Below are positions 5,892-49,487 of a DNA stretch of 49,951 bases, piece by piece. Below the pieces are notes generated by a model, which did no database searches, had not been told where the DNA came from, and saw only the letters and a list, made by a program, of their open reading frames with translations. The stretch spans positions 1 to 49,951 of the forward strand of contig CALDZJ010000030.1 in assembly GCA_937944055.1 (NCBI GenBank). Direction: 5' to 3'. Numbering within the stretch: the stretch's first letter is position 1; the number at the start of each line of letters is the position of its first letter. This DNA is from an uncultured Verrucomicrobiales bacterium (GTDB lineage: Bacteria; Verrucomicrobiota; Verrucomicrobiia; Verrucomicrobiales; Akkermansiaceae). The position numbers and the translations under genes were made by a program.

Positions 5892-5920
5892 GGATTAGGA
5901 AGTCGGGGATTAGGAAGTCG
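5892..5920. repeat. 15-bp tandem duplication at the clpC 3' end
   Basis: Two near-identical copies of GGATTAGGAAGTCG(G), one at 5892-5906 and one at 5907-5920. They span the short gap after the batD stop and the last codons and TAA stop of clpC on the opposite strand. The core TTAGGAAGTC recurs near 11432 in another intergenic region. Confidence 0.8.
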
Positions 5921-47805: not shown

Positions 47806-48372
47806 ATGGCTATCATCAAAGTCCAACGTCCAAAGCTCTCTCCCGGAGAGAAGATCTACTTTGGGTCTATTTTTAAGGGCATGATCATCACTCTGCGTCA
47901 CGCATTCCGATCACTCGTCGGAAAGTCCACAGGCGCCAAAGAGCTCAACTCCTCTGGTGTCGGTATCACGATGCAATACCCCGAACAAAAGTGGGACGAA
48001 GAGCTTCCTGAGTATTACCGTGGCACTCCTGCTCTCGTCACCGACGAGCAAGACCGCGAGCGCTGCGTCTCTTGCCAACTTTGCGAATTCATCTGCCCGC
48101 CCAAGGCCATCAAAATCACGCCAGGCGAAATTCCTTCGAACGACGAGTGGGCCAAAGTTGAAAAACGGCCTCAAGCCTTCGACATCGACATGATCCGCTG
48201 CATCTACTGTGGCATGTGTGAGGAAGTTTGCCCCGAGCAAGCGATCTACCTTCGTCCCGACTACGTCGTCACCGGAACCACCCGCAAGGAAATGGTCCAC
48301 GACAAAGACCGCCTCTACGAAATCGGCGGAAAACGCGTCGGCCTCGTCAACAAGTGGAATGAGCTTAAGTGA
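47806..48372 (+). CDS. nuoI: NADH-quinone oxidoreductase subunit I
   Basis: A 188-residue ferredoxin-like subunit that binds clusters N6a and N6b. Two 4Fe-4S motifs are intact: CVSCQLCEFICP (Cys87, 90, 93, 97) and CIYCGMCEEVCP (Cys132, 135, 138, 142). The N-terminal amphipathic region docks the subunit on the membrane arm. The TGA stop lies inside the first unit of the repeat tract that precedes the inserted four-helix-bundle gene. In most nuo operons nuoJ would follow directly. Confidence 0.97.
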   Translation: MAIIKVQRPKLSPGEKIYFGSIFKGMIITLRHAFRSLVGKSTGAKELNSSGVGITMQYPEQKWDEELPEYYRGTPALVTDEQDRERCVSCQLCEFICPPKAIKITPGEIPSNDEWAKVEKRPQAFDIDMIRCIYCGMCEEVCPEQAIYLRPDYVVTGTTRKEMVHDKDRLYEIGGKRVGLVNKWNELK

Positions 48373-48399
48373 TTGGTGATTAGGTTAAGAAGTTATTAA
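48369..48399. repeat. Left 8-bp-period repeat tract of the four-helix-bundle cassette
   Basis: Consecutive units GTGATTG (one base short), GTGATTAG, GTTAAGAA and GTTATTAA. They fill the gap from the nuoI stop to the base before the ATG at 48401. Read on the other strand they give TAAT/TTAAC/TAATCAC-like units similar to the right tract. Confidence 0.75.
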
Positions 48400-48400
48400 G

Positions 48401-48784
48401 ATGGGTAATTTACAAACATTTGAGGAACTCGAAGCTTGGAAGGCATGCCGTGCTTTCCGAATCTTCATTGCCAAAAATGTGACCCTTAAACTTCAGGAGC
48501 AACGCGAATATTCTCTCGCTGATCAACTCAAACGCTCTTCTCGATCTACAACTCACAACATTGCCGAAGGATTTGGACGCTTCCATTACCGCGACAACTA
48601 CAAGTTCTGCTCCATCGTTCGCGGCTCTCTAACAGAAGCACTCGACCAAGTCATCTGTGCTTACGACGACGATCTCATTTCAAAAGAAATTTTAAACAAT
48701 GTCCGCGAACTGTTTAGCCATGCTTCCAAAGTTCTCAACGGATATATGTCCTATCTCGCCAAGTCCGCAACCAAGTCTCAATAA
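48401..48784 (+). CDS. Four-helix-bundle protein, 23S rRNA-intervening-sequence (IVP/S23) family
   Basis: A 127-residue all-helical protein with the family pattern FEELEAWKACRAFRIFI near the N-terminus, YSLADQLKRSSRSTTHNIAE followed by GFGRFHYRDNYKFC, and a late helix with LFSHASKVLNGYMSYLAKSA. Members are found inside 23S rRNA intervening sequences in some bacteria, and as free genes scattered in many others; the fold resembles Avd of diversity-generating retroelements. No RT or variable-region gene is here. It sits between nuoI and nuoJ, in the same direction, flanked by 8-bp-period repeats. Three hand-counted 60-base lines within it each had 28 G or C, against 34 in a sampled nuoH line, which hints at foreign origin. 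Function unknown. Confidence 0.88.
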   Translation: MGNLQTFEELEAWKACRAFRIFIAKNVTLKLQEQREYSLADQLKRSSRSTTHNIAEGFGRFHYRDNYKFCSIVRGSLTEALDQVICAYDDDLISKEILNNVRELFSHASKVLNGYMSYLAKSATKSQ

Positions 48785-48821
48785 CCCACTAACCTGTTAA
48801 CCCAATAACCTACTAACCGGT
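48782..48821. repeat. Right 8-bp tandem repeat tract (TAACC plus three bases, five units)
   Basis: Five consecutive 8-bp units, each TAACC followed by CAC, TGT, CAA, TAC or GGT. The first three bases of unit 1 are the TAA stop of the four-helix-bundle gene, and the last unit ends three bases before the nuoJ ATG. The period is exact. Confidence 0.9.
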
Positions 48822-48824
48822 TCC

Positions 48825-49424
48825 ATGGACACAATTGCTTTCTACCTCTTCGCCATCCTCGCCGTCACTGGCGGGATATTCCTCGTAGCCTTTCGGAACC
48901 CCGTTTCCAGCGCCCTTGCGATGGTTCTTTCCTTCGTCGGACTCGCCGGACTCTTCATTGGGCTCAATGCCTACTTCGTCGGGATTGTTCAAATCCTCGT
49001 CTATGCGGGCGCCATCATGGTCCTCTTCATCTTTATCATCATGCTGCTCGATCTCAACGACGAGAAGCCGGTGAAGTTTAAATCGTCGACCATTCTCGCT
49101 GGAGTGGTGATCCCCCTCCTCCTCGTCGCTCAAGTCCTCGGAGTCATTCAATCCAACAACACCGGCGACGCGGGCGAGTTTGTAAAAATCGATGCCAGCA
49201 CAATGGCCGAGTCGGCGAAGGCCTATCCTGAAGACTCAGCGATTTATAAAAGCCTCGCTCACGAAAAAACTCCCAAGCTTCCCGATACCAACCTCATCGG
49301 GCACTCCATTTTCAATAGCTACAACTTCCCCCTCCAAATCATGGGGGCCTTGCTTCTGGTCGCCACCATCGGGGTCGTCGTTCTCTCTAAACGTTCCGCC
49401 AAAAGGGCTCCGACTGAGTCCTAG
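48825..49424 (+). CDS. nuoJ: NADH-quinone oxidoreductase subunit J
   Basis: A 199-residue membrane subunit of the proton-pumping arm with five hydrophobic helices. The family features are GGIFLVAFRNPVSSALAMVL at the first helices, VQILVYAGAIMVLFIFIIML (the conserved pi-bulge helix region) and a last helix LQIMGALLLVATIGVVVLSK. A loop of about 60 residues with TPKLPDTNLIGHSIFNSYN separates the last two helices. It starts three bases after the right repeat tract, so the inserted cassette has left this start intact. nuoK follows 63 bp downstream. Confidence 0.95.
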   Translation: MDTIAFYLFAILAVTGGIFLVAFRNPVSSALAMVLSFVGLAGLFIGLNAYFVGIVQILVYAGAIMVLFIFIIMLLDLNDEKPVKFKSSTILAGVVIPLLLVAQVLGVIQSNNTGDAGEFVKIDASTMAESAKAYPEDSAIYKSLAHEKTPKLPDTNLIGHSIFNSYNFPLQIMGALLLVATIGVVVLSKRSAKRAPTES

Positions 49425-49443
49425 TTCGTTCCGCCCTCCTTCC

Positions 49444-49478
49444 CAATCGTTCATTCCGCAATCGTCCATTTGTTCATT
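49444..49478. repeat. Short direct repeats between nuoJ and nuoK
   Basis: CAATCGTTCATT at 49444-49455 and CAATCGTCCATT at 49459-49470 differ by one base and are 15 bp apart. A third partial copy, GTTCATT, lies at 49472-49478, just before the nuoK start region. Confidence 0.6.
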
Positions 49479-49487
49479 TTCTCCGCC

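Follow-up and report, generated by a model that had tools for sequence, protein, structure and literature searches.

Why should a gene of the IVP family stand between nuoI and nuoJ, and what are the short repeats that bound it on both sides? We addressed this question at the end of a 49,951-nucleotide stretch of DNA from an uncultured Verrucomicrobiales bacterium (the whole stretch analysed, hereafter the window), where the gene order is nuoH, nuoI, IVP, nuoJ, nuoK, with nuoI and nuoJ identified by profile and nuoH and nuoK by eye. The IVP gene (48401..48784, on the + strand like every feature of this locus) encodes a protein of 127 aa with a pI of 8.8 that matches PF05635 (9.7e-24, 84.1 bits, curated cut-off 33.8) and TIGR02436 (1.4e-21, 76.8 bits, curated cut-off 24), which places it in the family named '23S rRNA intervening sequence protein' (IVP). 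The family, also called four helix bundle protein, is common in bacterial annotation, and we know of no established function for it. A sequence-only reading of the window had proposed that a 127-residue IVP/S23 gene of low GC content separates nuoI from nuoJ; the ORF coordinates and both profile matches agree, and the GC content of the gene is 44.5% against 54.8% for the window, within the lowest 0.4% of 384-nt windows.

Two arrays at the nuoI–nuoJ junction

Both neighbours of the IVP gene are intact, and the arrays occupy the spaces between them. The upstream gene, nuoI (47806..48372), has its TGA stop inside the left array (48369..48400; GTGATTGG TGATTAGG TTAAGAAG TTATTAAG), which consists of degenerate 8-mers on the G-richer strand and is complementary to the right array (48782..48821; TAACCCAC TAACCTGT TAACCCAA TAACCTAC TAACCGGT). 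The latter comprises five units of TAACC plus three bases with an exact period of 8; its first unit holds the stop codon of the IVP gene, and the tract stops 3 bp short of the ATG of nuoJ (48825..49424), all as the sequence-only reading had described. The right array has a lag-8 self-match score of 13, a value that one of 5000 letter shuffles attained when every lag between 5 and 12 was allowed, and this is the only period-7/8 tract in the window with a score of at least 13. The left tract had likewise been described as 8-bp repeats that are roughly the reverse complement of the right, of which the complementarity held up but the regularity did not: the inverted-complement score of the two arms, 22, was reached by none of 218 pairings with the arms of other loci and by 16 of 2000 shuffles, while the periodicity of the left array is not significant on its own (1142 of 5000 shuffles reach its score). 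The score of 22 lies below the set-wide 99th-percentile cut-off of 24, and a sibling genome (G010), whose left array has one difference in 32 nt, scores 25. A strict finder of periodic hairpins, described below, misses the window locus, whose arms are decayed.

The predicted minimum free energy fold of the window RNA closes the IVP ORF with both arms but is just modestly better than shuffles (z -1.66, 5 of 100 shuffles as good), and 25 of 109 mismatched arms equalled or surpassed the duplex energy of the arms, -16.7. Across 81 loci, 17 had own-arm duplexes below the 1st percentile of mismatched ones (means -30.8 versus -18.5). RNA pairing energy separates own from mismatched arms less well than sequence complementarity does, and is not decisive.

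We compared the nuoI–nuoJ gap in 20 genus members with a nuoJ locus (24 searched) and at ten other loci of the order. The relatives are not uniformly filled at this site. The gap is 3–7 nt in 16 of the 20 genus members and filled in the window's genome and G010 (452 nt); in G013 (48 nt) and G022 (30 nt, aagtaacccaataactcaa) it holds what by eye may be solo remnants of a right arm. Elsewhere in the order, a different IVP lineage fills the gap in G040 and G043; inverted arrays with no gene are present, as judged by eye, in G037 (107 nt) and G038 (126 nt); G039 has 58 nt and G047 31 nt, three gaps are 3–4 nt, and one was unmeasurable. When filled and empty gaps were compared by eye for a target-site duplication, none was identified, the empty ones (3–7 nt) being too short and variable. 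That the array unit was copied from the target site was considered and rejected: TAACC recalls some empty gaps (TAACCCC, by eye), but the elements of G040 and G043 carry unrelated units there. G043 has two IVP genes at different nuo junctions, the second after nuoK, and its nuoJ–nuoK gap (130 nt) resembles arrays without a gene; in G034, three IVP genes fall within a 5-kb stretch in or close to the nuo operon (compare loci L014, L066 and L094).

Mirrored arrays across the order and beyond

Our survey of the order covered 58 genomes, the window's included, and found 129 IVP matches in 48 of them. It used 115 of these matches (14 of the weakest were omitted, and one on contig C19 of the window's own genome, the weakest of all, was kept). 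Loci were oriented and the 120 bp on each side of the gene compared, which after four rows with short flanks were dropped left 111 usable loci. In the inverted-arm test, the left flank was scored against the reverse complement of the locus's own right flank, with a cut-off of 24 set at the 99th percentile of mismatched pairs. Inverted arms beyond the cut-off were found at 62 of the 111 loci, with 49 failing the test, compared with 0 of 105 for flanks taken 250 bp further out, so that IVP genes elsewhere are not randomly flanked. With separate cut-offs, 57 of 81 loci with matches of at least 53 bits and 5 of 30 below that passed (distant controls, 1/75 and 0/30). Direct rather than inverted arrays were present at seven of the 111.

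Self-match in both arms peaks at lag 7, with further peaks at 14 and 21. For the 63 loci selected on their inverted score the lag-7 peak was 12.0/10.5, against 3.2/3.6 in distant flanks, and the other 48 loci of the order gave 7.6/6.2 versus 3.7/3.5; the dominant period among the selected 63 was 7 in 38, 14 in 7 and 8 in 7. The strict finder, which demands inverted arms that are both periodic, was run with equal thresholds on IVP loci and background, excluding the duplicate locus L154. It recovered such arms at 47 of 94 non-core loci of the order and at none of 21 loci of an acidic core subfamily, and in the background it found no periodic inverted hairpin in 449,951 bases (the window and 400 kb of G040 from which known IVP places were excluded: a sample of one genome besides the window, unmatched for intergenic DNA).

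The acidic core subfamily of IVP-like proteins (L005 and its equivalents, e.g. G000:C26:24444-24758, G000 being the window's genome) occurs about once per genus member, with no arrays and with a CTTGTCA word upstream. Its median pI is 4.96, and it serves as a natural negative control for the arrays. It is possibly a domesticated relative. Non-core IVPs have a median pI of 8.67 (52 of 86 above 8, 6 of 86 below 6).

For other phyla we took the best 80 of 583 species-genome loci confirmed for one IVP subfamily, which is not a random sample; the inverted-arm test had 78 usable loci once L154 (a duplicate of a G043 locus) and one short-flank locus were dropped. By title, these best 80 of 583 come from Bacteroidota, Planctomycetota, Acidobacteria, Nitrospirae, Chloroflexi, candidate phyla, Deltaproteobacteria and others. 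Among them, inverted arms exceeded the null at 37 of 78 loci, direct arrays at 9 of 78 and either at 42 of 78 (distant controls, 0/75); they too peak at lag 7, and the strict finder recovered periodic inverted arms at 51 of 79. Chance repeats as the source of the arrays are rejected by the inverted-arm counts in both data sets and by the empty background of the strict finder. Where an arm has a tract (106/170 in the order, 119/158 in the multi-phylum set), its median length is 4.6 units in either data set. Shine-Dalgarno-like words in the left arm are a weak signal (18/63 and 29/79 loci), and G-C skew is higher in the left arm at 57/63 and 60/78 loci, counts that stand without a control flank. 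Eight cyanobacterial plasmid loci were taken from 33 plasmid records with matches, and by eye all eight have heptamer arrays, one of them (L150) in direct orientation. The array–IVP–inverted array unit is old and widespread, not a peculiarity of this locus.

Most elements sit inside co-directional runs of genes. Using crude longest-ORF picks as neighbour calls, both neighbours were co-directional with the IVP gene at 62 of 81 non-core loci of the order having both neighbours called and at 55 of 63 loci from the best 80 of 583, compared with 1 of 16 for the core subfamily. Junctions in the order, assigned by eye from grouped neighbour sequences, include nuo H-I, I-J, J-K and K-L, metK-ahcY, nrdB-nrdA, sdh, gyrB-gyrA, ilvB-ilvN, moxR-DUF58 and DUF1553-DUF1501. 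Pfam typing of the neighbours at 20 loci from the best 80 of 583 (for two loci, on a single side) showed that about half adjoin recognised partners: lspA-lgt, gspE-gspF, cas1-cas2, leuA-leuC, leuC-leuD, gatA-gatB, two TldD/PmbA-type genes, UDP-glucose dehydrogenase with an epimerase, two sugar epimerases, and moxR-DUF58. Others show no obvious partnership (gmk-nadD, ahcY-metF, PRiA4_ORF3-NA37, DeoR-PTAC, redoxin-GATase), and at further junctions from the best 80 of 583, FloA, PrgI, AcrB or a response regulator lies beside an unnamed gene; one element has rplB upstream and rpsS, by eye, downstream. Because random operon junctions also join related genes, this pairing is an observation and not a test. 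Cyanobacterial plasmid junctions include cas10-cmr3, cas6-cas4 and, antisense, nrdB-nrdA (a Nostoc plasmid). Three IVP elements lie within CRISPR-Cas operons (L172, cas1-cas2; L149, cas10-cmr3; L150, cas6-cas4), and a figure legend in PMC10910872 names an IVP domain near CRISPR systems. In PMC5524665, a table of phage elements lists guanylate kinase, a four helix bundle protein and nicotinate adenylyltransferase consecutively in both strains of Flavobacterium columnare.

Inheritance of arrays and proteins

We next consider how proteins and arrays are related across loci. A tree of 89 IVP proteins, 57 of them labelled by junction (32 unlabelled or core rows were left out of the clustering test), is limited in its support by the shortness of the proteins. 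The labels rest on one matching neighbour cluster, with G040 2524469 and G034 987828 set to nuo by hand, the latter by position alone. The tree follows junction, with 27 changes compared with a shuffled mean of 42.9 (reached by 0 of 2000 shuffles), and weakly follows host family, with 19 changes versus 24.4 (3 of 2000); by genome it showed no clustering (47 changes versus 46.9). Separate IVP lineages share junctions, at least three of them in nuo and three at moxR-DUF58, and one clade of nine proteins, with an SH-aLRT value of 99 and no bootstrap, spans different junctions in Verrucomicrobiota, Acidobacteria, Planctomycetota and cyanobacterial plasmids.

Arrays were compared for sharing among the 62 loci with an inverted score of at least 24. 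IVP pairs more than 60% identical share their array in 10 of 16 cases (6 of 10 at the same junction and 4 of 6 at others, some of which may be unlabelled same-junction pairs), never in opposite orientation, and sharing falls to about 1% among different-junction pairs less than 30% identical. Among these other pairs, that of nrdB-nrdA in G032 with metK-ahcY in G040, 65% identical, clearly comes from different operons. Complementarity was compared over 85 loci without the score filter: at 40–60% protein identity, cross-locus complementarity is 12.9–15.1, near the random value of 12.7, versus 24.7–29.9 within a locus. Independent drift would lower cross- and within-locus scores together, which was not seen, implying that some process or selection renews both arms. 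As judged by these comparisons, arrays are inherited with the protein yet change fast, and both arms of an element change together.

The protein itself is under purifying selection. Between the window's genome and G010, the IVP gene has dN 0.031 and dS 0.358, a dN/dS of 0.087, similar to the values for nuoJ (dN 0.053, dS 0.469); its closeness to nuoJ indicates that the protein is maintained and so is not decaying cargo, and the ratio suggests that it is useful and not merely parasitic.

Arrays also occur on their own. In 400 kb of G040 there are 7 orphan tracts of period 7/8, and at distances of more than 150 b from IVP genes the finder met gene-less periodic hairpins at 5 places within 178,935 b and at 16 within 270,285 b, a second IVP lying inside some of these; arrays can thus arise or persist without the gene. 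The window has a gene-less tract resembling a right array in the nuoJ–nuoK gap (49434..49487, + strand), which by eye resembles the right arm that an IVP element has in an sdh operon of a sibling species (G001), and the same gap in G010 is 15 bp, or about two units, shorter. Elsewhere in the window's genome, an orphan array (L002, G000:C94:5296-5327) matches the left array of the window with 88% identity across 32 bp and stands in right-arm orientation immediately before the start codon of another gene. A short 15-bp tandem at a gene's end (window 5892-5920, GGATTAGGAAGTCGG) may be an orphan array. In G040, an inverted pair of heptamer arrays with no IVP gene (L243:9041-9110) lies between two apparent tRNA genes, upstream of 23S rRNA words.

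A proposed intervening element in protein operons

The reading we prefer, with a probability of roughly 0.6, is that the gene in the window represents a single copy of a small (~450 bp) element that resembles an intervening sequence (IVS), made up of an array, one IVP gene and the same array inverted, and dwelling in protein operons. Such elements carry about five 7–8-nt units per array and occupy gene junctions, mostly inside co-directional runs, where both host genes stay intact and the IVP gene is presumably transcribed from the host promoter. The arms would act as the element's inverted ends and could pair, so that the host transcript would loop out the IVP gene in the manner of the 23S rRNA IVS, with RNase III the likely processor of the paired arms. 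Spread would be rare, through insertion at junctions and through transfer along with conserved flanking genes, and the arms might be kept alike by slippage and copying between them or by selection for pairing. The sequence-only reading had proposed a mobile or recombining unit of gene and inverted micro-repeats that enters operons without breaking them. The unit architecture is borne out and proved general across loci, and both of the checks set by that reading, on relatives at this site and on the flanks of other IVP genes, came out in its favour, but mobility found less support: no near-identical IVP copy turned up at another site in the window's genome, where no recent transposition was seen, and between copies whose junctions clearly differ, protein identity reaches ~65% at most.

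What the protein might do is suggested by its relatives. The window IVP matches the solved protein 2gsc (1.5e-7), and a profile of 18 IVP relatives matches 2gsc and 2rld, both of them single entries that contain five chains. A pentamer is also formed by Avd, which serves diversity-generating retroelements as their accessory protein, and ring proteins such as TRAP bind repeated units. PMC10053308 states that 4DWL and 2GSC are homologous. Because IVPs outside the core subfamily are mostly basic, related to Avd and represented by five chains per solved entry, we infer a probable pentamer that would bind about five units of RNA or single-stranded DNA. At approximately one unit per subunit, such binding would favour arrays of 4–5 units and would tie the array to its protein.

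Several known systems share parts of this design. Foldback elements and MITEs have inverted ends, which in foldback elements are built of short tandem subrepeats, and gene-less versions exist. The window element differs from these: its sole ORF of at least 90 aa is the IVP gene, so it has no transposase, and the arrays are common only to close relatives and thus do not supply the shared terminal inverted repeats of a classical transposon or MITE. Cyanobacterial STRR are tandem heptamers in intergenic DNA, as are the GGGAATC repeats of Xanthomonas and Nostoc and the TAACTGA repeats of Beggiatoaceae; our arrays have the same form but are paired, inverted and tied to an IVP gene. The accessible text of PMC4692102 describes inverted GGGAATC pairs in Xanthomonas, and term searches of that text and of the accessible text of PMC4679880 returned neither S23 nor four helix. 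In Geobacter metallireducens, four tandem octamers or five tandem heptamers occur mostly as opposite-strand pairs at variable distance (PMC2700814, in part), which recalls the paired short arrays seen here; within each of those classes, however, the sites follow a single consensus and are interpreted as binding a regulator, whereas our arrays differ by locus, and the searchable text contains neither S23 nor four helix. The 23S rRNA IVS has complementary ends with one S23p ORF in the loop, measures 428–444 nt in Coxiella and is excised by RNase III (PMC4990558, in part). The window element shares its protein family, its approximate size (~450) and its single ORF between complementary ends, but lies between the protein genes nuoI and nuoJ and not in a 23S rRNA helix, and its ends are 7–8-nt tandem arrays of locus-specific sequence for which a role of RNase III is a prediction; three 23S words sought in the loci matched only the control stretch L243. 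An open-access literature search, with subscription papers mostly outside its scope, returned no account in the available texts linking IVP genes to flanking short-repeat arrays.

Other explanations must be weighed against the operon-dwelling element. Each IVP subfamily could be a resident operon gene that serves the surrounding complex, its arrays being regulatory binding sites and the whole inherited vertically and often lost. The clustering of IVPs by junction across host families, stronger than that by host family, fits this account, as do the many junctions that join partners of one complex or pathway and the dN/dS of 0.087. We nonetheless consider it unlikely given how patchy the gene is, with 16 of 20 genus members having 3–7 nt at nuoI–nuoJ, the separate lineages found in nuo and at moxR-DUF58, the single clade that spans unrelated junctions and four phyla, and the antisense IVP gene between nrdB and nrdA on a Nostoc plasmid. 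A recombining cassette, close to the sequence-only reading, would instead make the arrays the unit's sites of entry and exit, used by a host recombinase or by microhomology repair, leaving array-only states of the kind judged by eye at nuoI–nuoJ (gene-less arrays in G037 and G038, and possible solo right arms in G013 and G022); array sequences differ between loci, however, and so offer no shared site, which makes this improbable.

Two further accounts fare still less well. If the arrays were ordinary, slippage-prone intergenic heptamer microsatellites of the STRR kind, IVP genes would merely lie among them, and orphan arrays of the same style without IVP genes are what one would expect, as are the reported over-representation of heptamer repeats in bacteria (PMC4692102, in part) and the paired four-unit octamer sites on opposite strands in Geobacter metallireducens (PMC2700814, in part). 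This is quite improbable in view of the strict finder's empty background, with the composition noted above, set against 47 of 94 loci in the order and 51 of 79 from the best 80 of 583, of the excess of within-locus over cross-locus complementarity, and of the array-free core subfamily (0/21). Least probable by our estimate is a retro-mobile element in which an Avd-like IVP works with a reverse transcriptase supplied by another locus and cDNA synthesis rewrites the arms. Its appeal lies in the resemblance of PF05635 to Avd, of diversity-generating retroelements (PMC10053308, in part). Against it, there is no RVT_1 match (E <= 1e-8) on the window's contig (C30), the only RVT_1 match in its genome is weak (39 bits) and on contig C35, and G024, G032, G034, G040, G052 and G055, with 4–8 IVP matches each, have none at that threshold. 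Since several IVP-rich genomes thus lack a reverse transcriptase match, an enzyme acting in trans is unlikely to be a general requirement.

Returning to the operon-dwelling element, a broader version of it, tentative and in our judgement short of an even chance, would make these 'operon IVSs' pan-bacterial minimal mobile elements at the junctions of co-transcribed operons. Each would carry a single protein, a pentamer that binds nucleic acid, together with inverted arrays that renew themselves and have about five 7–8-nt units, one per subunit; an unknown copying process would rewrite the arms together, the element would be looped or cut from the host mRNA, and the rRNA IVS would then be one specialised branch. 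For the IVP family, the findings supply a defined context, that of mirrored and concertedly changing arrays at operon junctions, together with a testable ligand in the protein's own array and a testable RNA fate. They also raise the question of how two inverted arrays that lie apart come to be rewritten in concert, and they would extend the idea of the intervening sequence from rRNA to messenger operons.
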